From positions 79,320 to 116,948 of the forward strand of contig NZ_AUPM01000003.1 of assembly GCF_003265365.1 (NCBI RefSeq): DNA of 37,629 nt. Reading direction: 5' to 3'. Origin of the DNA: Petrotoga sp. 9PW.55.5.1. GTDB lineage: Bacteria; Thermotogota; Thermotogae; Petrotogales; Petrotogaceae. The notes beneath the pieces were generated by a model. That model saw only the letters and a list, made by a program, of their open reading frames with translations. It ran no database searches and was not told where the DNA came from. Made by a program: the position numbers and the translations under genes. This document shows, in pieces, positions 3,026 to 19,853 of the stretch (the stretch's first letter is position 1; every line of letters starts with the position of its first letter).

Positions 3026-3190
3026 TTAATCATCAAGAAGTTCAAAATCTTCCTTGCCTGCTCCACAAACAGGGCAAGTCCAATCTTCTGGCAAATCTTC
3101 AAAAGATGTTCCAGGTTCTATTCCGTTATCTGGATCTCCAGCTTCTGGATCGTAAATATAACCACAAATAGTGCATCTGTATTTTTTCAT
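3026..3190 (-). CDS. rubredoxin
   Basis: Small 54-residue one-iron electron carrier: [18 protein letters not shown] at the start and [14 protein letters not shown] near the end. The two CxxCG knuckles that bind Fe(SCys)4 are both present, and the length matches classical rubredoxins. AGGAG lies 8 bases before the ATG. It is the last gene of a rubrerythrin - superoxide reductase - rubredoxin operon, where it probably supplies electrons to both upstream enzymes. It shares the clpC terminator. Confidence 0.95.
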
Positions 3191-3227: not shown

Positions 3228-3581
3228 TTACTCAACTACAATTTTTTTAGTATTTTCCCATAATCCATGAATATTACAGTGAGAAAGAGCTATTAAAGTA
3301 CCACTTTTTGATAAATTTAACTTTGATTTTATATGAGGCTCACTAACAACTGCCCCAAAGATATATCTTCCAAGATGAACAGTATTTGGATCATCATCAT
3401 ATTGAATAAATAGATCGATCCATTCAATATGGTGTTCTACGGTATTAGGATGTTTTATCTCTTTTCCTACTTGAATATCTACTTCAAATTCTTCATTTGC
3501 CTTAACCTTATCTACGCAATCAATAGTAGGAACATGTTTTTCTTCTTTAAAATCCTTAATTTTTATTACATCACCTAGCAA
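3228..3581 (-). CDS. sor: superoxide reductase (neelaredoxin type)
   Basis: 117-residue mononuclear iron enzyme that reduces superoxide to hydrogen peroxide without making oxygen. EKHVP near residue 14, KHPNTVEHHIEWI and the C-terminal SHCNIHGLW give the four histidines, one cysteine and the Glu/Lys pair expected of the Fe(His)4Cys centre. The N-terminal desulforedoxin domain is absent, so this is the one-iron class. The only in-frame start is TTG at 3581, behind GGGGTG. It sits between rubrerythrin (55 bases upstream) and rubredoxin (37 bases downstream) on the same strand; the peroxide it makes would be removed by rubrerythrin. Confidence 0.93.
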   Translation of the reverse strand: MLGDVIKIKDFKEEKHVPTIDCVDKVKANEEFEVDIQVGKEIKHPNTVEHHIEWIDLFIQYDDDPNTVHLGRYIFGAVVSEPHIKSKLNLSKSGTLIALSHCNIHGLWENTKKIVVE

Positions 3582-3636: not shown

Positions 3637-4146
3637 CTAAAATTCTATAAATTTACTTTTTGGGGCTCCACAAACTGGACATTTTTCTGGAGCTTCTCCC
3701 TCTACTGTGTAACCACAAACATCGCATATAAATATCTTACCAACCTCTACATCCTTACCTTGTTCAACAACTTTTTTAGCGTTTTTATACCATTCTGCGT
3801 GGATTTTTTCCGCTTCTAATGCGAAGTAAGTTGTTCTTACTGCTTCATTTTCTTCTTGGAAGTTAGCTGCGTTATTATATACCGGATACATCTCTTCTAC
3901 TTCAAAATTCTCTCCATCAATACATTGTTGCAAATTATCATCTGTTGAGCCAATGTATCCCAATGCTCTATAATGGTTTCTTGCATGTACAAACTCAGCA
4001 TGGGCTATAGCTTTCCACATTCTAGAAAGATTCTTTAAGCCTTTTTCTTCAGCTTCAGCAGAAAAGATAAGATATTTCATATGAGCTTTTGATTCTCCAC
4101 AAAATGCATCTTCTAAGAATTGCCTTGTCATCTCTCTTTCAACCAC
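3637..4146 (-). CDS. rbr: rubrerythrin
   Basis: 169-residue NAD(P)H-linked peroxide reductase. The N-terminal ferritin-like four-helix bundle carries the di-iron ligands in [21 protein letters not shown] and [12 protein letters not shown]. The C-terminal rubredoxin-like domain has [20 protein letters not shown] (about residues 141-160). The start is GTG at 4146, eight bases after GGAGG. It heads the operon with superoxide reductase and rubredoxin, a standard anaerobe set for surviving oxygen exposure. The H-NOX chemoreceptor gene ends 123 bases upstream on the same strand. Confidence 0.95.
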
Positions 4147-4215
4147 TTTATCTACCTCCTTTTTTAAATTTTGATAATCTTTTTTACGTTTGGATTATTA
4201 TATAGTCCGATGTAA

Positions 4216-4224
4216 ATTATAGCA
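4216..4224 (-). promoter_or_regulatory. possible rbr operon promoter, extended -10
   Basis: On the minus strand TGCTATAAT lies about 70 bases before the rubrerythrin start. A good -35 is not visible. A second TATAAT at 4197-4202 lies downstream. This gap of 123 bases is the only space for a promoter of the oxygen-defence operon if it is not read from the chemoreceptor gene. Confidence 0.35.
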
Positions 4225-4269
4225 TAGAAATTTAAAGATAAAATAAAAAACAAATAAATTAAATTTTAC

Positions 4270-6087
4270 TTACTGATTCCTTTGTGAAAATGTGCCCTTT
4301 AGATCTGCAATGAAATTTTCAATTTCTACTAAATCTTCAAGTATATCTCTGATATTGTTTACAAAAGTTTTAACTGATGAGGAAATTTCCTCTGCGGTTG
4401 CAGAACCTTCTTCGGAAATTGCTAGTAAGTTTTGAGTGTTTTTTGTTAAGTCCTCTAGTTTTGTTCCTTCAGCACTAAGAGCGTTCAAGATGTGTCTAAT
4501 ATCGTTTGTTATTTTTTCAATATTATCAGCGGATTCTCTGTTGTCTTTTGAGCTAACTCTTAAATTGTTTGCTCCTTCTTTCATGGAAGTATATTCTTTT
4601 TCTACTGTTTGCGTGAATAAAGTTATTCCTGATGAAATTCTATTTAGTATTTTGTCTATCTGTGAAGCCGCTGTTTTACTTTCTTCAGCTAACGATCTTA
4701 TTTCATCAGCAACAACAGCAAATCCTCTTCCTGCTTCTCCGGCTCTTGAAGCTTCTATTGCTGCATTAAGAGCCAAAAGATTTGTTTGTTCTGCTATACC
4801 TTTTACTGTATCTACTACTTTTAATATTTCCTTGGTATCTTCTTCCAATTTGTCGCTTTCCTTTACTAAACTGCTAAACCGTTCACTCATCTCTTCTATT
4901 TCATTTGAAGAGTTTTCAACTTTTATAGAAGAATTGTTAATTTTCTTAACAGCATCTTCTAAGGATTCTACCATGTGAGTTTCTTGATTAATAATATCTT
5001 GAATTGTATTAACATTTGTATCTATTACGTTAGAAATAGACTCTGCATCGGTAGCAATTTGCTCTGAACTTATGGCTACTTGTTCTACTAACTCACTAAT
5101 AGAATCGCTAACATCTCGCATTTCTTTGGCTCTTTCCCCTACTCTTGAAGTGAATGTTTCTATCTCCTCTATATCTCCTGATAATTCAATAAATAAACCG
5201 TTTAATTCATTTCTAATTTTATCTATTTCTCTGGTATGTTTTTCCAATAATGATTCTCCTTTAAGTAAAAATGGTTCGTCATAATTCTGATTGGATAGAC
5301 TTTTTAAACCCTCATTTGAATAATTGAAAATTCTCTTAAAATAGCCGCCCATAAAGAATATGAATAAACCCGACAAGACTCCGGTTAATAAAGAACTGTA
5401 CCAATTAGTTCCTAAAAGAAAATTAAAAAGCCAAGACAAAACAAAAATTACAACTATAGAATAAAAGGTTAATGAAGTAAAGAAAGACTTTATTACACTA
5501 AAACCAATTGCTAAAAGAAAAGTAGTTTTCTTTACTTTAGCGTATGGTTTTTCACTTTTGAGTTTTATTTTTATAAAACTACCTTTTTCAGTGGTTCCTT
5601 GATCTAGAATTTCATATTCTATTTTTTCGTCAAAAACTTCAGCGCTACCCTCTAATAGTCCTAAAAAATAATATCTCATATCCCTAAAGGATCGATAAGT
5701 TAAAAAAGCAGAATTGCTATCGATAATTTCGAATTCTATTGCTGGAGGTCTAGCCCCTTGAATCCTTCTTGTTAGAGATTTATGAACGTCATTCATAGAA
5801 GATAAAAAAGATAAAAGCCCTTTCTTTTTAAAAAAATTAGGATAATATTTTTTAAAAGTATATATATTTTTGTTTCCAAGTTCTTTCATTATCTCATCTT
5901 TAGATTTTTTTGATTTTTTTGTCATTAGATCCAATAAACTATTTACTTTTTCTTCTTCTAGATCTTCAAAAGGAGAAAAGTGTTTGTTCCTTGGAATTCC
6001 TACATTATCCATCATTTCGTTAACAAAATCATTTCCATAAGTATTTCTCCATGTTTCAAGCCATGTTTCAATTAGCATACCTTTCAT
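4270..6087 (-). CDS. H-NOX haem gas-sensing chemoreceptor (MCP)
   Basis: 605-residue methyl-accepting chemotaxis protein. Residues 1-185 are an H-NOX (HNOB) haem domain collinear with the Caldanaerobacter (Tte) domain: proximal haem ligand His102 in NDVHKSLT, Pro115 in GARPP, and the haem-propionate motif Tyr131-Ser133-Arg135 fall at identical numbers. The distal-pocket residues Trp9, Asn74 and Tyr140 that stabilise bound O2 in Tte are also kept, so O2 binding is predicted as well as NO. Two membrane helices follow (about 206-250) with hardly any outside loop, so sensing is cytoplasmic. The signalling domain occupies the rest, with the conserved hairpin tip [19 protein letters not shown] at 433-451. 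No clear HAMP. It lies directly upstream of the rubrerythrin operon, suggesting an oxygen-avoidance role. Confidence 0.93.
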
Positions 6088-6141: not shown

Positions 6142-6150
6142 ATTATACCA
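6142..6150 (-). promoter_or_regulatory. extended -10 promoter of the chemoreceptor
   Basis: Minus-strand TGGTATAAT about 55 bases before the chemoreceptor ATG, with no good -35. The same 9-mer stands before glk, proS and the last gene of the window. Confidence 0.5.
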
Positions 6151-9760: not shown

Positions 9761-10036
9761 TTAATTAGTTCTTTTCCAAATTGTTTTGTTTTTCCAATCA
9801 TCATAGATTTCATTAATATCTTCAGGTAAATCCAAATCCTCTGAATTTTTAGAAATAGATTCTTTTATCAAATCTATCGGAAGCGACGTAATAAACCAAA
9901 GATCGCTTAAGTAAATTCTATTATTATCTCGTAAAGGCGCTTTAAATATAGCCCCCTCAACAGCCTTTGCAAATATGGATATAGGCACTTCTTTAACAAA
10001 TCCCTTACCTGAATCTTCGCCATATATATTGTTCAT
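9761..10036 (-). CDS. conserved-looking hypothetical protein
   Basis: About 91 residues beginning MNNIYGEDSGKGFVKEVP; no family recognised. It is soluble, acidic toward the C-terminus (SEDLDLPEDINEIYDDW), with no signal or membrane segment. The GTG at 10048 would sit one base after AAGGAGG, too close, so ATG 10036 (13 bases away) is the better start though slightly far. It lies between glk (24 bases downstream of that stop) and the PHP gene on the same strand, so it may be in a glk-orf-PHP unit. Confidence 0.65.
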   Translation of the reverse strand: MNNIYGEDSGKGFVKEVPISIFAKAVEGAIFKAPLRDNNRIYLSDLWFITSLPIDLIKESISKNSEDLDLPEDINEIYDDWKNKTIWKRTN

Positions 10037-10072
10037 AAAATTAAACACACCTCCTTAAAAAGGTTTTAGGGG

Positions 10073-11023
10073 CTAAAAGTTTTTCTCTTCTGCATATAAC
10101 GCAGCAGATGCCGCCCCTAAAATGCCTGCATCTTCAACCAAAGAGGATTGTTCTATAGTGTATGTTCCAACGAAACTACTCATAACGTATTTTTTAGTCA
10201 TTTCCCTCAAAGGAATAAAAAGGGCGTCTCCCGCTCTACTAAGTCCCCCGCCAATTATGATTTTTTCAGGGTTAAAGGCATGGACATAAGCACCAATAGC
10301 TCTTGCGAGGGCATCGATAGAAAAATTAGCAACTATTGTAGCAAGAGGATCATTCTTTTCATAGGCTTGAAATACATGTTTGGATTCTATTTTTTCTTTA
10401 CTTCCAGCTAATTTTAAGACCAAACTATCAGGATACCTATCCAATAAATTTTGTGCTTCTTTTGCGATATATTTAGCTGAAGAAGTTGCCTCCACACATC
10501 CTCTATTACCACAGCCACAAATAGGGCCATTAGGTACTACAACAATATGGCCCAATTCTGGTGCTAATCCATCTTTTCCAGTTAAAAATGTGTTATTACA
10601 AACAACCCCTGATCCTATTCCAGTTCCCAAAGTAAGGGCAATAAAATCTTTTAATCCCTTTGCTTTTCCAAAATACCATTCTCCTAAGGCAAAGGCGTTG
10701 GCATCATTTTCGACAAAAACATCAAGCTTTGTTTTTTCTTTTATTAATCGAGTAAGTTCAAAATCGCGCCAGTTAGGGAAATTAGGAGAAAATCTAATTA
10801 TCCCTTTATCTCTATCAATTGACCCAGGAGAACCTATACCAATTGCATCAATTTTAGTATCATTGGATAAAGCTTTAATAACTTTAACGATATTTTCTAC
10901 TATTCTGTCATTACCTTTCTCAACTTCTGTAGGATTTGACATCTTTTTTATTATACCTTTTTCTTCGTCCACCAATCCCCCTTTTATCTGTGTCCCTCCT
11001 AAATCTATACCTACAACTACCAT
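10073..11023 (-). CDS. glk: ROK-family glucokinase
   Basis: 316-residue ATP-dependent sugar kinase, first step of glycolysis. Phosphate-1 motif GIDLGGTQIKGG at 5-16, sugar-binding/catalytic VENDANAFALGEW, phosphate-2 LTLGTGIGSGVV, ELGHI and the ROK zinc cluster CGCGNRGCVEA are all in place, followed by GGGLSRAGD near the C-terminus. No N-terminal helix-turn-helix, so it is an enzyme and not a ROK repressor. AAGGAG precedes the ATG. It diverges from ispD across a 157-base gap. Glucose is the likeliest substrate, but other hexoses are possible in this family. Confidence 0.92.
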   Translation of the reverse strand: MVVVGIDLGGTQIKGGLVDEEKGIIKKMSNPTEVEKGNDRIVENIVKVIKALSNDTKIDAIGIGSPGSIDRDKGIIRFSPNFPNWRDFELTRLIKEKTKLDVFVENDANAFALGEWYFGKAKGLKDFIALTLGTGIGSGVVCNNTFLTGKDGLAPELGHIVVVPNGPICGCGNRGCVEATSSAKYIAKEAQNLLDRYPDSLVLKLAGSKEKIESKHVFQAYEKNDPLATIVANFSIDALARAIGAYVHAFNPEKIIIGGGLSRAGDALFIPLREMTKKYVMSSFVGTYTIEQSSLVEDAGILGAASAALYAEEKNF

Positions 11024-11180: not shown

Positions 11181-11870
11181 GTGATTTATGCTATTATTGT
11201 TGCAGGTGGAGTGGGTAATAGAGCTGGGTTTAATCTTCCAAAACAATTTGTTAGGTTAAATGGAAAAACAATTTTGAAAATGACTGTTGAAAAATTTCAA
11301 AATTCAGAATTAATAGATAAATTTATAATTGTATCTCATAAAGATTTTTTTAAACAAACTGAAGAAGAAGTTAAAAGATTTTCTAAGTTTGAAAAAATTA
11401 TAGTTGGGGGAGAGAGTAGGCAAAAAAGTGTATTTAACGGCCTTTTGTATTTAGCTAAAAAGAATAAAAAACCTAAAATTGTTTGCATTCATGATGCAGT
11501 AAGACCATTCGTAGAAATAAGAAAAATCGATGAATGTATTAATAAGGCAAAAGAAACAGGAGGTGCTATCTTAGCAGAAAAAGCGGAAAACACTGTTTCT
11601 CAGGTTAGTAATCAAAATATAGAAAAAATATTTAAAAGGTCACAGATATTTCTACACCACACACCACAATCTTTTGATTTTGAAAAATTATTAGAATCTT
11701 ATGAAAAAGCAAAAACTCTATTATCAAGTTTCACAGATGATGCATCTATATTTTTATATGCAGGTTTTCAAGTGACAATTGTTGAGGATTATAAAAACAA
11801 CATAAAACTTACAACAAAAGGTGATTTTGAATGGGCTGAATCGTTTTTAAGACATAAAGGTCTCAAATAG
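11181..11870 (+). CDS. ispD: IspD cytidylyltransferase (MEP pathway)
   Basis: 229 residues. Transfers CMP from CTP to 2-C-methyl-D-erythritol 4-phosphate in isoprenoid synthesis. The nucleotide-binding N-terminus reads VAGGVGNRAGFNLPKQF; further motifs are GGESRQKSVFNGL, HDAVRPFV, HTPQSF, TDDASIF and the C-terminal NIKLTTKGD. A ribitol-5-phosphate cytidylyltransferase (TarI) has the same fold; the single copy and absence of teichoic-acid neighbours favour IspD. The start is GTG at 11181 after GGGAGG. It is convergent with the lysine operon, overlapping the deacetylase gene by 24 bases with no terminator between. Confidence 0.85.
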   Translation: MIYAIIVAGGVGNRAGFNLPKQFVRLNGKTILKMTVEKFQNSELIDKFIIVSHKDFFKQTEEEVKRFSKFEKIIVGGESRQKSVFNGLLYLAKKNKKPKIVCIHDAVRPFVEIRKIDECINKAKETGGAILAEKAENTVSQVSNQNIEKIFKRSQIFLHHTPQSFDFEKLLESYEKAKTLLSSFTDDASIFLYAGFQVTIVEDYKNNIKLTTKGDFEWAESFLRHKGLK

Positions 11871-12959
11871 CTCTATTCCTAAATCTATTACCTCATCAGA
11901 TGGTAGAAATTTGGGGTTATGTATCCCATAGTATTCACCTTTTGAGGTACCTAACCAGCACATTAATGAGGGATATTGTTTTGAAATAAATCCAAAGTCT
12001 TCTGCCGTCATTTTTAACCCACAATCAATGAAATTAAATTTACGGGAGATTTTGGGGATATATTTATCAAATAATTCACCGTTATTTATAACTTCCGGAT
12101 AAAATGACCCTTTATTCAGCAGGTAGTTCACTTCAGTAATAGTTTTAATACCTTGTAAGACATCTTCAATTTTTTGAAAAAACTCTATAACTTTATTTGA
12201 GTTATCGCTTCTTATACTTCCTTCCAAATGAGCGTGAGAAGGTAATATGTTTATAGCGTTTCCTGCCATTACTTTTCCGATTCCTATAACAAAGGGATCC
12301 ATAGGATTTCTAGGGATTTTATCTATAGAATCTAAGAATGTTCTAAGGGCATTTAACGCATTTTTTGATTTATGAGGGAAGGCAAGGTGGGCTGAAACTC
12401 CTTCAAAATCAATAAAAATCTCTAAAGAAGAAGCAAAAAGAATGCCTCTGGTAGTAGCTATAGACCCAAGTGGGTATTCATCAGTAACATGCAGGGCAAA
12501 AGCACTTTTAATATTATATCTATCAAGAACTTTGCTTTTTAAAATTCTTTCTGCCCCACCTTTAGATTCCTCTGCCGGTTGGAATAAAAAAATGATATTT
12601 TCTTTAACCTTATTTTTCACAACGTTAAGCAAAACCCCGTATAAAATAGCTGTATGAACATCATGTCCACAGGCATGCATATAATCGTTTTTTGAGGCAA
12701 ACTCAACATTTGTTTCTTCTTTTATATTTAATGCGTCTATATCAGCTCTAAAAAGCAAAAAATCTCTATTTAAATTGTTTCCGTTATATTCTACTATTAA
12801 TCCTGTTTCTAAAGGCTTGATAATCTTTAAATCAAGATCGTACTTTTTTGATATCTCGGATATATTATTTTCTAATAATTTTGTAGTTTCGTACTCTTTT
12901 AAAGATAATTCGGGATTTTGATGTATTTTATGTCTCAATTCATAGGGTTCAAGAATCAC
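11847..12959 (-). CDS. M20 amidohydrolase, likely N-acetyl-diaminopimelate deacetylase
   Basis: 370-residue zinc amidohydrolase of the M20D group. RHKIHQNPELSLKEYET opens the protein, HACGHDVHTAIL holds metal ligands, FQPAEESKGGAE carries the catalytic Glu, and TAEDFGFISKQYP lies near the end. The domain in the middle is the usual dimerisation lid. The family also includes hippurate and indole-acetyl amino-acid hydrolases; placement as last gene of the dap operon with dapH and an aminotransferase argues for deacetylation of N-acetyl-LL-diaminopimelate. GTG start at 12959, ten bases after GGAG, overlapping the aminotransferase end by 11 bases, so translation is coupled. Confidence 0.88.
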   Translation of the reverse strand: MILEPYELRHKIHQNPELSLKEYETTKLLENNISEISKKYDLDLKIIKPLETGLIVEYNGNNLNRDFLLFRADIDALNIKEETNVEFASKNDYMHACGHDVHTAILYGVLLNVVKNKVKENIIFLFQPAEESKGGAERILKSKVLDRYNIKSAFALHVTDEYPLGSIATTRGILFASSLEIFIDFEGVSAHLAFPHKSKNALNALRTFLDSIDKIPRNPMDPFVIGIGKVMAGNAINILPSHAHLEGSIRSDNSNKVIEFFQKIEDVLQGIKTITEVNYLLNKGSFYPEVINNGELFDKYIPKISRKFNFIDCGLKMTAEDFGFISKQYPSLMCWLGTSKGEYYGIHNPKFLPSDEVIDLGIELFETFMS

Positions 12960-14094
12960 TTAAAATCATCTCCAATTTCTCTAACATTACTTCAATATCA
13001 TCATATTTAATGTTTAAAGGAGGGAGTATTCTAATAATCTTGTTTTTTAGAACATTTAATAATATACCCTCATTGAACCCTTTTTCTTTAATAGAAGTAT
13101 CTTCATCTTTTAATTCAATTCCAATCATTAGACCTTTTCCTCTGATTTCTTTTACTTTGGATAACTTTTTACTACATAAAGATTTTACTATGTAATCGCC
13201 TTTTTCTTGAACGTCAGTTAGCAAATCAGGCATATTTTCCAAAACAAATTTTGCCCCAGCTAAAGAAACAGGATTAGGTGCAAAAGTAGACCCATGCTCT
13301 CCTTTTTCAAATGCTTGAGAAAGGTTCTCAAGAAATATTGTTGCCCCTAAAGGTAAACCACCGCCAATTGATTTACCTATTGTAATGATATTAGGAGTTA
13401 ATCCATAATGTTGGTAAGAAAATACTCTTCCTGTTCTTCCCAACCCAGCTTGAATTTCATCACAAACTAAGATGAAATTATATTTCTTTTTATAGTTTTC
13501 TAATTCTTTTGCAAAGTTCAAATCTATAGGAAGTACCCCGCCAGATCCAAGAATTGCTTCAACAAAAACAGCTAGAGTTTCCTCGCCGAATAACTCAAAA
13601 TATTTGTTTAAATCTTCAAAATCATTGAATTTTAATTGAACCGTGTTAGGTAATAACGGATCAAAAGGTTCTCTTAAGTTCTTAAATCCATTTATTGAAA
13701 GAGCTCCCAAAGTTCTTCCATGAAATGCATTTTCAAAATAAACAATCTTGTTTCGTTTAGAATTGGCTCTTTTTTTGATCGCTTTTAAAGCAGCCTCAGT
13801 TGCCTCTGTTCCTGAATTAGTAAAATAAACCGTTCCATTTTTTCCTGTAAAACTTTCCAATTTTTCAGCAACCCAAATAGCATCATTATCTAAAAAGAAA
13901 TTAGATAGATGTGTGTATTTTTCCATTTTTTCATGTAGGGTTTTCAATAACGGTTTATAAGAGTGTCCAAAAGACATTACACCAATTCCTGAAAAGGTAT
14001 CAAAAAATTTTCTCTCAGACTTATCATAAATATAACATCCTTCAGCATGATCAATAGTTATAGGAAATGTTTCGTACATTTTTAATAAACTCAT
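12949..14094 (-). CDS. class III aminotransferase, likely N-acetyl-diaminopimelate aminotransferase
   Basis: 381-residue PLP enzyme of the acetylornithine/4-aminobutyrate class. Visible: FTNSGTEATEAALKAI, FHGRTLGALS, VCDEIQAGLGRTGR and the PLP lysine in TIGKSIGGGLPLGA, then GEHGSTFAPNPVS. Sequence alone would suggest ArgD. Its position between aspartokinase and the acetyl-DAP deacetylase, and the absence of other arginine genes, suggest it makes N-acetyl-LL-diaminopimelate from the 6-oxo compound; it could serve both pathways. The ATG overlaps the aspartokinase stop as ATGA. Confidence 0.88.
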   Translation of the reverse strand: MSLLKMYETFPITIDHAEGCYIYDKSERKFFDTFSGIGVMSFGHSYKPLLKTLHEKMEKYTHLSNFFLDNDAIWVAEKLESFTGKNGTVYFTNSGTEATEAALKAIKKRANSKRNKIVYFENAFHGRTLGALSINGFKNLREPFDPLLPNTVQLKFNDFEDLNKYFELFGEETLAVFVEAILGSGGVLPIDLNFAKELENYKKKYNFILVCDEIQAGLGRTGRVFSYQHYGLTPNIITIGKSIGGGLPLGATIFLENLSQAFEKGEHGSTFAPNPVSLAGAKFVLENMPDLLTDVQEKGDYIVKSLCSKKLSKVKEIRGKGLMIGIELKDEDTSIKEKGFNEGILLNVLKNKIIRILPPLNIKYDDIEVMLEKLEMILSDS

Positions 14095-15290
14095 AATTCA
14101 AACTCCTTCATTAAGCTGTCAACAGCTATATTTTTGTATTGTGTGGGAACTAAACAGGATATTTTAATTTCAGAAGTAGTAACCAAAAATATAGGAATAT
14201 CTTTCATAGCTTTAAAAAAGCGTGAAGCTACTCCCCTAGCTTTTCGCATACCTATTCCAACAACGGAAATTTTCACAAGATTATTCCTATATTCTATATT
14301 TTTATTATTTTCAAAGATCAAGGTTTCTTTCAAATATTCTTGGAAATTATCAAGTTTACTTTCTATTATACTGAATGAAAGATCTATTTTATCACCTTTC
14401 TTTATAATCGAGATCATATCTACATTTAAGTGATTTATAGCGGCAACTTCGAATATTTTGTTTACTGTAAAGCTTGAATCGGGTAATTCTGTTATTGTTA
14501 CCTGCATCTGTTCTTCGTCCAAACTTAAGCCTGTTACTACAGGTTCTTCCAAATAGTTATTATATTCTCCCACTACGTAACTTCCCTCCTCATCTGAAAA
14601 AGATGATGCACAATATATTTGTACATTAAACTTTTTAGCTATTTCAACAGATCTTGAATGAAGAACTTTTGCTCCTAAGGCAGCCATTTCTAGAATTTCG
14701 TCATAGGTAACAAACTTCAATTTTTTGGCTTCAGGATAAATATTTGGATCAGTGGTATATATTCCTGCATAATTACTGTAAATCTCACAAGGAATCCTTA
14801 AAGATGCTGCTAACGCTACAGCTGAGGTATCGGAACCACCTCTACCCAATGTAGTTATCTCACCTTCTTCTGTAATACCTTGAAAACCTGTTATAACAAG
14901 TACTTCGTTGTTTATAAGGTTTTTGTAAATCAACTCTTTATTTATTTTTTTAATCTGTGCGTCATTATAATCGTTTGTGGTTAATAATTGAAGTTGAAAA
15001 GCGTTCAAAGATTTAGATTTTATTCCCTTTTCGTTTAAAATCATAGATAACAATGAAGCGCTTATTTGTTCGCCTGTTGATAAGAGCATATCCATCTCAC
15101 GAGGAGTAGGATCTTTCACAACTTCTTTGGCTAGTTTCAACAATCTGTTTGTTGTATCTCCCATGGCAGATACAACCGCTATTACTTTATACCCCTTTTT
15201 TATCTTGTTTTCGATTCTTTTTGCGACATTTCTTAGCCTTTCTGAATCAGATAAAGAACTTCCCCCATATTTTTGCACAACCAATTTCAT
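14091..15290 (-). CDS. aspartate kinase
   Basis: 399 residues. Phosphorylates aspartate as the committed step to lysine. VVQKYGGSSLSD at the N-terminus, STGEQISASLLS, GFQGITEEGEITTLGRGGSDTSAVALAA and TTDPNIYPEAKKL are standard kinase motifs; the last 130 residues hold two ACT domains (VTGLSLDEEQMQVTI, ISVVGIGMRKARG) that usually sense lysine or threonine. The longest ORF starts at GTG 15302, but that codon is part of the GGGGTGA ribosome binding site; ATG 15290 is the better start. Its single copy beside dap genes suggests lysine-specific supply, in addition to riboswitch control. Confidence 0.93.
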   Translation of the reverse strand: MKLVVQKYGGSSLSDSERLRNVAKRIENKIKKGYKVIAVVSAMGDTTNRLLKLAKEVVKDPTPREMDMLLSTGEQISASLLSMILNEKGIKSKSLNAFQLQLLTTNDYNDAQIKKINKELIYKNLINNEVLVITGFQGITEEGEITTLGRGGSDTSAVALAASLRIPCEIYSNYAGIYTTDPNIYPEAKKLKFVTYDEILEMAALGAKVLHSRSVEIAKKFNVQIYCASSFSDEEGSYVVGEYNNYLEEPVVTGLSLDEEQMQVTITELPDSSFTVNKIFEVAAINHLNVDMISIIKKGDKIDLSFSIIESKLDNFQEYLKETLIFENNKNIEYRNNLVKISVVGIGMRKARGVASRFFKAMKDIPIFLVTTSEIKISCLVPTQYKNIAVDSLMKEFEL

Positions 15291-15334
15291 TATACAGTTC
15301 ACCCCGGAATAATATTATTAGATAAATAAGAAAA

Positions 15335-16036
15335 TTATTTTAATTTTCTTAAACCTTCTATTAATTGAGTCTTTCCTTTGGTTTTTTCATCAACTTTTTT
15401 TATAAATTTACCTGGAACACCTGCAATTACAGAATAAGGTTCAACATCAGAAATTACAACTGATCCAGCTCCTATTATAGAACCTTTACCTATCTTTACA
15501 CCTTCTAAAATTACCGCATTAGCTCCAACTAAAACATCATCTTCGATTATTACAGGCTGTGCACTTGGTGGTTCTATTACTCCCGCTATAACAGCTCCAG
15601 CACCTATATGGCAATTTTTTCCGATTTGTGCCCTTCCTCCTATCACAGCGTTCATGTCAATCATAGTGTTTTCTTTTATACTAGCTCCTATATTTATAAC
15701 CGCTCCCATCATAATGACACAACCGTCTCCAATTTCAACCATATCTCTAATAGTAGCCCCCGGTTCAATTCTTGCGTTATATTTTGATAAATCAGCTAAG
15801 GCAATTGCTGAATTTCTTCTATCTCTTTCAATCCTATAATTTAAAATATTATCTTTATTTCTTTTATAAAATCGAACGAATTCTTCTTCTTCACAAAACA
15901 AAATACCAAATTTCTTATTTCCATAAAATTCAAGATTATTAAAATCTATATCTTTTAGTTTGCCTTTAATATAGACCTTTATTGGGTTCTTTTTCTTAGA
16001 GTTAGCAATCAAGTTTATTACATCTTGTGTATTCAC
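15335..16036 (-). CDS. dapH: tetrahydrodipicolinate N-acetyltransferase
   Basis: 233 residues. Acetylates tetrahydrodipicolinate using acetyl-CoA, which defines the acetylase branch of diaminopimelate synthesis. The first 85 residues are the DapH N-terminal domain (ending [19 protein letters not shown]). The rest is a left-handed beta helix of hexapeptide repeats, including [27 protein letters not shown] and [17 protein letters not shown], a segment typical of DapH rather than the succinylase DapD. GTG start at 16036 behind GGAGGA. Part of the lysine operon, 33 bases after dapB. Confidence 0.95.
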
Positions 16037-16069
16037 AAAATATCCTCCTCGTAGAATTTTGGATTTTTA

Positions 16070-16708
16070 TCAAATAATATCAGAAAAAGTATAAAAGCCA
16101 TTGTCTTTATTCATGACAAATTCTGCTGATTTTAAAACTCCTTCTGCAAAGGCTCTTCTTGATAAAGCCCTGTGAGATATACTTAAAACTTCCCCAAGAT
16201 TTGACAGGTATATAGTATGATCTCCTGGAACGTTTCCCAATCTTAGTGAACTGATTGGAACGTCTTTTCCGCATCTTTCTTTTAACATCTTAGCTGTTCC
16301 TGATGGTTTATCTTTTTTAAATCTATGATGGGTTTCTGTAATTTCAACATCCCAACCATTTGTGCTATCTTTCAAAACATCTATCATTTTAAGAAATAAT
16401 TGAATTCCTATGGAAAAATTATAACTTTGAACAACTGGAACATTTTTCGCTAAATTTTTTAATGTATATATTTGATTATCTGATAACCCAGTGGTTCCAA
16501 TGATCAAAGGAACGTTGAATTTTTTTACATAATTAACCGTTTTTTCAAACACCTCTGGTAAAGAGAAATCTATCAATATTTCGGGAACTTCTTTTGAGAA
16601 CTCTCCATCTTTATCGTATCCCCACACAAGTTGGTTCCCATTTTCTTCAAATAACTGACTAATCTCTTTTCCCATCCTCCCCTTGTAGCCAATTATTCCA
16701 TATTTCAT
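16070..16708 (-). CDS. dapB: 4-hydroxy-tetrahydrodipicolinate reductase
   Basis: 212 residues; shorter than the 240-270 of most bacterial DapB, but of the compact size seen in Thermotoga. N-terminal Rossmann motif GIIGYKGRMGKEI, the linker IIGTTGLS, the catalytic region TETHHRFKKDKPSGTA with the paired His and Lys, and a C-terminal SRRAFAEGVLKSAEFV. Uses NAD(P)H to make tetrahydrodipicolinate. The ATG overlaps the dapA stop as ATGA, so the two are translationally coupled, matching their consecutive reactions. Confidence 0.94.
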   Translation of the reverse strand: MKYGIIGYKGRMGKEISQLFEENGNQLVWGYDKDGEFSKEVPEILIDFSLPEVFEKTVNYVKKFNVPLIIGTTGLSDNQIYTLKNLAKNVPVVQSYNFSIGIQLFLKMIDVLKDSTNGWDVEITETHHRFKKDKPSGTAKMLKERCGKDVPISSLRLGNVPGDHTIYLSNLGEVLSISHRALSRRAFAEGVLKSAEFVMNKDNGFYTFSDII

Positions 16709-17583
16709 AATAATTCCAACCTTTCTAATTCTTCTTTTAGAAGATTTTCTGTTTCTTTTGTGGCTTTTACTAAAGGTAACCTTAAAACATTTTCACACAA
16801 ATTGAGTAAAGACGCCGCACATTTAACAGGAATAGGGTTGACTTCTTTGAATAATAGTTTGTTAAGTTTCATATATTTGTTATTCAGTTCTCTTGCCTTA
16901 TCATAGTTATTGTTTAGTATTGCATGAGTCATTTCTGAATAAGCTTTAGGTACAACATTAGATGCGACTGATATTACCCCGTTTCCACCCATAGCCATTA
17001 TTGGTAAAACTTGATCGTCATTTCCAGAAAAAACTTTTAGAGTATCAGGTTTTATAGAAAACAGTTCAGCTATTTGTTGTATATTACCGCTTGCTTCTTT
17101 TATTCCTATAACATTTTTACATTCTTCATGTATTTCTACAGCCGTTTCTGGAAGTATATTCATACCAGTTCTTGATGGAACATTGTACATAATTATTGGT
17201 AATTCTGTTCTTTCAGAAATATATTTAAAATATTCTACCAATCCTTTTTGAGTGCTTTTGTTATAATATGGAGTTACTATTAATAATCCATCAGCTCCAG
17301 ATTTTTCCGCCATTTTGTTGAATTTTAAAACATGATTAACGTTGTTGGTTCCAGTTCCAACTATTACCGGTACCCTTTTGTTGTTAACTTCTATTACTGT
17401 ATCAACAATTTTTTGTCTTTCCTCTTCTTCTATCGCTGGAGCTTCACCGGTAGTTCCTAAAACGACTAAACTATCAACACCGTTTTCAATTTGGTAATCA
17501 ACAAATGTTTTCAGACTGTTATAATTGACATTTTTATTCTGATCAAATGGTGTTATCATAGCTGTTCCTACACCTTTAAACAT
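16705..17583 (-). CDS. dapA: 4-hydroxy-tetrahydrodipicolinate synthase
   Basis: 292 residues, full length. Condenses pyruvate with aspartate semialdehyde. Catalytic elements of the TIM barrel: GTTGEAPA (Thr pair, about 44-51), MYNVPSRTGMN (Tyr), VIGIKEASGN (Schiff-base Lys) and FSGNDDQVLPIMAMGG. The ATG lies 6-7 bases after GGAGGA. Lies between lysA and dapB. The match to DapA is strong throughout; sialate or KDG aldolase relatives are unlikely in this context. Confidence 0.95.
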   Translation of the reverse strand: MFKGVGTAMITPFDQNKNVNYNSLKTFVDYQIENGVDSLVVLGTTGEAPAIEEEERQKIVDTVIEVNNKRVPVIVGTGTNNVNHVLKFNKMAEKSGADGLLIVTPYYNKSTQKGLVEYFKYISERTELPIIMYNVPSRTGMNILPETAVEIHEECKNVIGIKEASGNIQQIAELFSIKPDTLKVFSGNDDQVLPIMAMGGNGVISVASNVVPKAYSEMTHAILNNNYDKARELNNKYMKLNKLLFKEVNPIPVKCAASLLNLCENVLRLPLVKATKETENLLKEELERLELL

Positions 17584-17615
17584 ATATAGATCCTCCTTTG
17601 ACTTTATTTAATATT

Positions 17616-18848
17616 TTAAAAATTTAGAGTTGAAAAGTAATCATCAATTGTTTCAGCACGTCTAATCATCTTAAATTTTCTATCTGAAGTAAAAAGATAC
17701 TCAGCTGATCTTAATTTTCCATTATAATTAAATCCCATTGAATGTCCATGAGCACCGACATCATGAAAAACTAATATATCTCCTGATTCTAGTTTTGGTA
17801 GCGCTCTGTCAACAGCCAACTTATCGTTGTTTTCACACAAAGAACCTACAACATCGTAAGTCTCATTTTCATCTTCAAATTTCTTATTTAGAACGGTTAT
17901 ATGGTGATATGCTTTGTACATGGCAGGTCTTAATAGATTCGCTGAGTTAGCATCTATTCCTACATACTTTTTAAATGAATCCTTTATGTGGAAAACTTTT
18001 GTTACTAAATATCCATTAGGTCCACTAATATATCTTCCATGTTCCATATAAATTTTAGGAGGGTTTAAACCGTTATTTATCAATATCTCTTCGTATAGTT
18101 TCTTTATCTCTTGAGATATATAATATATATCCAATTCCTCTTCATCCGGCTTATATGGAATACCAAATCCTCCGCCAAGATCTATAAAATCAAGATCAAT
18201 CCCAAGTTCTTTTTTTATTTCAAAGGCTGTGTTAAAAAGAAATTTTGCTACCATAATAATGTTTCGAGGGTTCAATTCGTTAGAAACAAGCATTGCATGC
18301 AATCCAAACTTTTTTACACCATGTTTTTGAAGCAGCTTATATCCCTTTATTAAATCACTTTTTGGAACACCAAATTTTGATTCTTCTAAATTACCTATTA
18401 TTTCATTTCCAAAGTCTCCGCCGGGATTATATCTAATAGAAACTAATTCTGGAAGATAAAGTCTTTCTTTTAAAATGTTTATATGCCCTATATCGTCTAA
18501 ATTCAATACGGCGTTTAAAGATAAAGCTTTTTCATACTCGCTTAAAGGGGTGTCGTTTGAAGTAAATAAAATGTCTTCATTTTTAAATCCCGCTTTCTGT
18601 GCTAAAACTAACTCTGCCATGGAACTGCAATCAACCCCACAGCCTTCTTCTTTTGTTATTTGTAAGATAAAAGGATTAGGAGTTGCCTTTACAGCAAAGT
18701 ATTCCTTAAAATTCGCCCAAGAAAAAGCTTCTTTTAATTTTTTAATTCTATTTCTAATACCTGCTTCGTCGTATACATAAAAAGGAGTTCGAGTATTTTC
18801 TAAAAAATCAAGAATTTCTTGTTCTGTAAAAGGTAATTCTTTTTTCAA
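17616..18848 (-). CDS. lysA: diaminopimelate decarboxylase
   Basis: 410 residues. PLP enzyme that converts meso-diaminopimelate to lysine. TPFYVYDEAGIR and the PLP lysine in YFAVKATPNPF (Lys54) open the barrel; GCGVDCSSMAEL, DLGGGFGIPY, the GSLCENND motif with the active-site Cys from the partner subunit, and a C-terminal VGAHGHSMGFNYN follow. The longest ORF begins with GTG 18857, whose G belongs to the AGGGG ribosome binding site; TTG 18848, eight bases on, fits better and gives MKKELPF. Second gene of the lysine operon, directly after asd, whose stop codon overlaps this binding site. Confidence 0.93.
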   Translation of the reverse strand: MKKELPFTEQEILDFLENTRTPFYVYDEAGIRNRIKKLKEAFSWANFKEYFAVKATPNPFILQITKEEGCGVDCSSMAELVLAQKAGFKNEDILFTSNDTPLSEYEKALSLNAVLNLDDIGHINILKERLYLPELVSIRYNPGGDFGNEIIGNLEESKFGVPKSDLIKGYKLLQKHGVKKFGLHAMLVSNELNPRNIIMVAKFLFNTAFEIKKELGIDLDFIDLGGGFGIPYKPDEEELDIYYISQEIKKLYEEILINNGLNPPKIYMEHGRYISGPNGYLVTKVFHIKDSFKKYVGIDANSANLLRPAMYKAYHHITVLNKKFEDENETYDVVGSLCENNDKLAVDRALPKLESGDILVFHDVGAHGHSMGFNYNGKLRSAEYLFTSDRKFKMIRRAETIDDYFSTLNF

Positions 18849-18859
18849 AGTGAGCACCC

Positions 18860-19837
18860 CTATTTTTTATTTAGTTCTTTGTGTTTTTTTAGTATTCTAA
18901 TAGCGTTTGTTGCGGCCCCAACCCTTATATTATCAGCAACAACCCACATTAAAAATGTTTTTTCTTGAGGTTTTCTAACTCTTGAAACGAAAGTAGTATC
19001 CGTACCTGCAACCTCTAAAGGAGTAAGTTTCTCATCTGTATATTCAACATTAGGTGTAATCTTAATCAGGTTTATTATTTCATCTTTTTCGGCATCAATT
19101 TTAGTTTTTACCAATATCGATTCTGAATGCCCATAAAGAACAGGAACCCTCACTGTTGTAGGAAATATTCTTATCTCATTGTTTGAAAAGATCTTTCTGG
19201 TTTCTTTTATCATCTTTTCTTCTTCAAAGGTAAAACTATTGTCAAGATCTGATCCTATTATTGGAATTACATTATTTTTTATAACTTTCGGGAAATGATT
19301 TACTGAGTTTATTCCTTTTTCTTGATTTAACAGCTCTGTTATGCCTTTATTCCCTGCTCCTGATACTGCTTGATATGTTGAAACAACGATTTCTTCTATA
19401 CCTAATTTTTGATTTATACCGTTTAATGCCAAAACCATTTGTATAGTTGAACAATTTGGATTAGCGATTATCCCTTTGTAACCTTTCAAAAGGTCTCCAT
19501 TTATCTCAGGAACAACAAGTGGAACATTATTGTACATTCTAAATTGTGAAGAATTATCTATAACAGTATTGTCAGCATTTTGAGCAAGAGGGGCATATAT
19601 TTTTGATACATCTGAACCCGCAGAGAAAAACAAGTAATCAAATCTTTCTGTCATGTTTCTTTCTTTGAGCTCTTCAACGATAATTTCATCGCTGCCTACT
19701 TTGACCTTTTGACCTTTTGACCTTTCAGAGGCAAATAATCTTAATTCCGTTATTTCATTGAGCATTTTGTATTCTTCAAATAATTTTAAAAATGTTCGGC
19801 CAACTTCACCTGTAGCTCCTACAACACCTATTTTCAC
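18860..19837 (-). CDS. asd: aspartate-semialdehyde dehydrogenase
   Basis: 325 residues. Reduces aspartyl phosphate to the semialdehyde. KIGVVGATGEVGRTFL is the NADP-binding start, NSSQFRM and VPLVVPEIN follow, IANPNCSTIQ holds the nucleophile Cys129, and YQAVSGAG and the later VPVLYGHSESILVK complete the active site. The ORF extends to GTG 19846, but that lies directly on GGAGGT; the GTG at 19837, ten bases away, gives the canonical family start MKIGVVGATG. First gene after the lysine riboswitch, 17 bases past the terminator U-tract. Confidence 0.95.
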   Translation of the reverse strand: MKIGVVGATGEVGRTFLKLFEEYKMLNEITELRLFASERSKGQKVKVGSDEIIVEELKERNMTERFDYLFFSAGSDVSKIYAPLAQNADNTVIDNSSQFRMYNNVPLVVPEINGDLLKGYKGIIANPNCSTIQMVLALNGINQKLGIEEIVVSTYQAVSGAGNKGITELLNQEKGINSVNHFPKVIKNNVIPIIGSDLDNSFTFEEEKMIKETRKIFSNNEIRIFPTTVRVPVLYGHSESILVKTKIDAEKDEIINLIKITPNVEYTDEKLTPLEVAGTDTTFVSRVRKPQEKTFLMWVVADNIRVGAATNAIRILKKHKELNKK

Positions 19838-19853
19838 AAAAGTCACACCTCCA

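Follow-up and report, generated by a model that had tools for sequence, protein, structure and literature searches.

In a genome apparently unable to make haem, an O2-type haem chemoreceptor is encoded beside O2-detoxifying genes, a combination that was unexpected. The receptor gene, of the H-NOX-MCP type, lies at positions 4270..6087 on the minus strand of the window (the whole stretch of DNA that was analysed, 37,629 nucleotides), starts with ATG at 6087 and encodes 605 aa. Its product is probably an O2 chemoreceptor of the kind known as Tte Tar4/H-NOX-MCP, cytoplasmic and anchored to the membrane, which would run on external haem and drive escape from O2 via CheA. Haem b from outside, the host making none, would be seated on His102; its Fe(II) would bind O2, which a Tyr140-Trp9-Asn74 hydrogen-bond network would hold; a shift of the H-NOX fold would reach the MCP rod by way of a membrane hairpin of two helices, and the rod would make the single flagellar CheA more or less active, leading to escape from O2. 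Rubrerythrin, superoxide reductase and rubredoxin would be the chemical half of the response, by removal of peroxide and superoxide.

The host belongs to the Petrotogaceae (Thermotogota), a family in which the receptor is a new member of its kind; its genome (2.08 Mb) is 99.9% complete. From its group and from its rubrerythrin and superoxide reductase genes we infer that it is an obligate anaerobe. O2-type H-NOX domains fused to MCPs in anaerobes are an already described kind (PMC8738867), and the first-pass annotation overstated its case in this respect. According to the same 2022 review, the H-NOX proteins of obligate anaerobes require the distal Tyr for O2 binding, are fused to MCPs in the membrane and probably sense O2 for chemotaxis (PMC8738867). 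For the prototype receptor, O2 sensing is presumed and itself undemonstrated (PMC9814294).

Domains and haem pocket of the receptor

The H-NOX chemoreceptor described by the first-pass annotation, which left the strand unstated, is recovered by Pfam on the minus strand with both its parts: HNOB at residues 2-159 (E 1.8e-40, 138.9 bits vs a cut-off of 25.5) and MCPsignal at residues 391-552 (E 9e-35, 120.5 bits vs a cut-off of 34.6). Pfam, phmmer to PDB chains and the AlphaFold model delimit an H-NOX domain of residues 1-188 (5524..6087, minus strand). It is followed by the two-helix membrane hairpin, residues ~190-251 (5335..5520, minus strand), and by the MCP signalling domain (4432..4917, minus strand), which carries the conserved CheA/CheW-binding hairpin tip. 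Two hydrophobic segments, ~188-230 and 229-251, stand out in the hydropathy profile; the loop joining them is minimal, and none of any size lies outside. Thus the receptor has no outside sensor domain, in agreement with the short hairpin that had been proposed. A SEE adaptation motif is present in the receptor sequence; methylation of the receptor is putative.

In phmmer, residues 1-187/190 align to the Tte H-NOX chains 1xbn/1u4h of the PDB without any gap (E down to 6.8e-38), so that residue numbers are identical in the receptor and in Tte. At this numbering the receptor has W9, N74, F78, H102, A112, P115, Y131, S133, R135, Y140 and L144, i.e. the proximal His102, the YxSxR motif at 131-135 and the distal Trp9/Asn74/Tyr140. 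The collinearity claimed for His102, Pro115, Tyr131, Ser133 and Arg135 is borne out, as is the retention of Trp9, Asn74 and Tyr140, which are moreover invariant in a 30-sequence alignment. Two pocket positions differ from Tte: Ile5 is changed to Leu, as also in PDB chain 3nvr, and Phe82 to Tyr. The distal Trp/Asn/Tyr triad has been described in the literature, and ligand choice depends on more than the distal pocket alone (PMC7356049).

All eight named residues fall within the 17 invariant columns of 30 H-NOX domains from Thermotogota, Bacillota and Calditrichota (hypergeometric p 7e-10), and within the 24 invariant columns of 21 H-NOX domains of the same class (hypergeometric p 2e-8). No variation in the pocket is seen among the complete H-NOX-MCPs compared. 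In the 97 H-NOX reading frames that were inspected, Phe140 replaces Tyr140 only in L039, a stand-alone 173-aa protein without an MCP; the other apparent Tyr140 gaps are truncated or split frames. The frequency of this Tyr in the 66 loci given by an alignment query of genome contigs is biased, these loci having been found in part with a pattern that contains Tyr140 (YFLGL); no such bias affects the Thermotogota set, which came from a profile search. Between close species dN/dS over the H-NOX domain is 0.03-0.06, and the pocket is under strong purifying selection.

The AlphaFold model of the H-NOX domain, built from 30 sequences and containing no haem, has a mean pLDDT of 91.2. Its top Foldseek matches are all H-NOX, the best being Tte structures (TM 0.87-0.93), including the O2 complexes 1u4h and 1u55. 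The overlay on Tte H-NOX suggested beforehand thus gives, at the level of the fold, the Tte structures as best match with a TM of 0.92. The NO-selective H-NOX of Nostoc and Shewanella match the model less well (TM about 0.76-0.81). The reading of an O2-type pocket within a Tte-like architecture in a likely anaerobic host is supported.

HNOB was found in 46 of the 103 genomes of the class, and the open frame of the receptors is constant in length, typically 604-606 aa. A tree built on 77 full-length receptors groups those of the Thermotogota in one clade apart from the Bacillota, which points to mainly vertical descent; horizontal transfer was rejected on this ground. A single-sequence query of the genome contigs returned no matches, and no relative of the receptor was found in the viral contigs searched. 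PLSDB gave one full-length match, from Acetoanaerobium, with 30% identity. One genome (G009) bears two H-NOX-MCPs, one in an oxygen-defence cluster (L033, L057 being the two loci) and one divergent beside a glycoside hydrolase 65 gene. The gene immediately upstream of the H-NOX-MCP codes for a GGDEF protein in one genus that belongs to another family of the class (L038:4177-5751, plus strand).

The oxygen-defence cluster and the signal output

The receptor gene heads a cluster in which three genes lie directly downstream on the same strand. The first encodes rubrerythrin (rbr, 3637..4146, minus strand; 169 aa, GTG start; Pfam Rubrerythrin 4e-21, RUBY_RBDX 3e-13), the second a superoxide reductase of the neelaredoxin type (sor, 3228..3581, minus strand; 117 aa, TTG start; Pfam Desulfoferrodox 2.6e-30, TIGR00332 above cut-off) and the third rubredoxin (rd, 3026..3190, minus strand; 54 aa), identified by its CxxC...CPVCG sequence and by homologues at the same place in relatives. 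The order receptor-rbr-sor-rd is found in 10 genomes of 5 genera (G000, G001, G002, G004, G005, G008, G009, G011, G012 and G015), even where the rest of the flanks is different (g4, g5) or lost beyond the end of the contig (g8).

An extended -10-like element, TGGTATAAT, is read ~55 bases ahead of the receptor start codon (6142..6150, minus strand); it is weak on its own as a promoter candidate, and relatives carry a similar TATGGTATAAT upstream of the receptor. A second extended -10-like element, ATGCTATAATTTAC, stands upstream of rbr (4212..4225, minus strand) and is conserved between species: ATGYTATAATTTAC precedes rbr in all Petrotoga-like species, in one of them with a single change, and close variants occur in other genera. 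ATGCTATAATTTAC is likely an internal promoter of rbr-sor-rd. A strict four-gene operon is weakened by this conserved promoter-like site, and also by relatives which have the trio but no receptor. Three genomes are concerned, G003, a species of the host's own genus, and the two of genus g3, all with rbr-sor-rd at the same place. In G003 (L159:6364-6957) the leader, the promoter-like site of rbr and about 17 terminal receptor codons are still present, and the sequence on either side of the lost gene matches that of the sister species; the receptor gene was thus removed from G003 by a near-exact deletion.

The cluster is confined to part of the Petrotogaceae. No rbr, sor or rd neighbours were found beside the H-NOX-MCPs of Marinitoga, other Thermotogota or Bacillota (for the latter within ~6 kb), whose neighbours are unrelated. 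The link of the receptor to O2 defence is real and conserved, yet local and optional. We found no literature joining H-NOX with rubrerythrin, or H-NOX with superoxide reductase.

Two further observations concern the surrounding DNA. Sister species carry a short repeated element (TTTTAGAGTTTCTAAAGTCATTATA...) within their receptor leader (L030:6641-6665 and L159:6568-6592, both minus strand), and stretches resembling it occur elsewhere in L031, at about 9960-10382; it is absent from the window, where the receptor leader is much shorter. An ordinary lysine biosynthesis cluster occupies 11847-19846 of the window (minus strand), with genes for aspartate kinase, DapA, DapH, an aminotransferase, an M20 peptidase, a PLP decarboxylase and a semialdehyde dehydrogenase.

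The clustering of the receptor with rbr, sor and rd supports O2 as the signal. It was overlooked by the first-pass annotation, and it is the best evidence for O2 over NO. That NO is the physiological ligand, the receptor being a NO alarm whose O2 binding has no role, deserves consideration because Tte H-NOX takes NO and CO besides O2 (PMC9814294) and the H-NOX of facultative anaerobes sense NO (PMC8738867). We nevertheless hold it to be unlikely: the distal Tyr is missing from NO-selective H-NOX while the triad is invariant here, the model is nearer to O2-binding than to NO-only structures, and the genes beside the receptor are those of O2 defence, not NO-handling genes.

The receptor had been expected to signal to the flagellar or another Che-controlled system. 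Only one of the three CheW-domain proteins of the genome is a CheA (669 aa); it is clustered with CheW, CheY and FliP, and the genome also encodes flagellin. The flagellar system is thus the only CheA-controlled output, so that the first half of this expectation stands and the second falls. The hairpin tip of the receptor is almost identical to the tips of the cell's other MCPs. The distance from the tip to the SEE motif is 112 residues in all 50 motif-matched H-NOX-MCPs and 91 in two of the cell's own MCPs; a profile alignment puts this gap in rod length at 14 residues, against 21 by the motif, so that any rod length class is provisional. The rod that differs from these own MCPs (L175, L177) is encoded at 4270-5247 of the window (minus strand). 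Rod length class varies among true MCPs and has no bearing on MCP membership.

Haem supply

Neither HemB (ALA dehydratase) nor ferrochelatase was found in the host genome or in 30 relatives, and HemC is absent from the host genome. More widely, HemB is absent from 40 of the 43 H-NOX-bearing Thermotogota genomes tested. The three positive hosts belong to one genus and give E about 1e-144, which indicates that the search is sensitive enough in the class. HemC follows the same pattern across hosts. Outside the Thermotogota 23 of 27 H-NOX hosts, in genomes whose completeness is not given, have both HemB and HemC. Those with neither are Caldanaerobacter subterraneus DSM 13054 (the result is for this strain, not for subsp. 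tengcongensis MB4), Caloramator quimbayensis, Halanaerobium kushneri and Alkalithermobacter thermoalcaliphilus. No classical ferrochelatase passed the cut-off in any of 50 H-NOX hosts (15 + 35).

Every known tetrapyrrole route needs HemB and HemC, and no route to uroporphyrinogen III is known except through porphobilinogen synthase (PMC7242693). The receptor must run on scavenged haem or on some unrecognised source, and haem scavenging is the simplest reading of the missing synthesis. Under haem scavenging, O2 chemotaxis would depend on environmental haem. This gap in the host was also overlooked by the first-pass annotation; since no haem synthesis is encoded, a holo-sensor in vivo cannot be assumed. 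Papers on H-NOX and ferrochelatase included none about H-NOX hosts, as judged by their titles and abstracts, and the missing haem synthesis of these hosts may, on weak evidence, not have been remarked on before.

The same gap, with HemB, HemC and ferrochelatase missing from the host, HemB missing from nearly all Thermotogota hosts and no bypass of porphobilinogen synthase known (PMC7242693), could also mean that the receptor reports haem or its availability by an apo/holo switch, or that it is normally apo and silent, O2 sensing being conditional. We regard this as improbable. The distal O2-type residues are themselves invariant and under purifying selection, which haem sensing alone does not call for, and haem scavenging would reconcile an O2-type pocket with a host that makes no haem. 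The invariant pocket and its low dN/dS also count against the domain having simply lost haem.

A decaying leftover without a role would account for the clean deletion in G003, where the trio is kept, and for the absence of the receptor from genus g3, but is very improbable given an open frame of constant length, a dN/dS of this order and an invariant pocket. Activation of an apo-protein by cysteine oxidation, described for the H-NOX of Vibrio cholerae (PMC7108781), would suit a host that makes no haem but has a negligible probability here: the mode is excluded by the lack of any cysteine in the 605 aa of the receptor, and residues 1-190 are likewise cysteine-free in 67 of 84 full-length relatives.

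Against these alternatives, an O2 receptor working on external haem is our preferred reading. For the Thermotogota and at least some Bacillota hosts, including Caldanaerobacter DSM 13054, we tentatively suggest, as a possibility somewhat short of even, that an O2-type H-NOX on environmental haem acts as a haem-AND-O2 gate of chemotaxis and not as a self-sufficient O2 sensor.

Relation to known H-NOX systems

The closest known system is Tte/Cs H-NOX (Tar4H) of Caldanaerobacter subterraneus subsp. tengcongensis (PDB 1u4h, 1u55 and 1xbn). The two proteins have in common their domain order, a near-equal length, the membrane hairpin, an H-NOX domain that aligns without gaps and the same proximal and distal residues, in keeping with the TM of 0.92 of the model. 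The Caldanaerobacter protein aligns with the receptor over its whole length, with small gaps only near the hairpin. They differ by an identity of ~35% in the H-NOX domain, by Leu5 for Ile5 and Tyr82 for Phe82, and by the oxygen-defence cluster, in which the receptor gene lies and the Caldanaerobacter gene does not.

The MCP-fused H-NOX of Bacillota (Caloramator, Alkaliphilus, Halanaerobium and others) have the architecture, the triad and the signalling-rod length of the receptor, but form a separate clade, have no rbr, sor or rd within ~6 kb, and most of their hosts have HemB and HemC. The NO-selective H-NOX of Shewanella, Vibrio and Nostoc belong to the same fold family (TM about 0.8); unlike the receptor they are without the distal Tyr, and they lie in operons with kinases or diguanylate cyclases and are not fused to MCPs (PMC9814294). 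In anaerobes the genes for rubrerythrin, superoxide reductase and rubredoxin also occur side by side; here a haem chemoreceptor precedes them.

The cluster is independent genomic evidence for O2, and not NO, as the signal. Most Thermotogota hosts, and the Caldanaerobacter strain, lack haem synthesis, which raises the question of where, or whether, these sensors get haem. Both findings bear on the role of O2-binding H-NOX in obligate anaerobes, and the missing haem pathway carries the greater weight.
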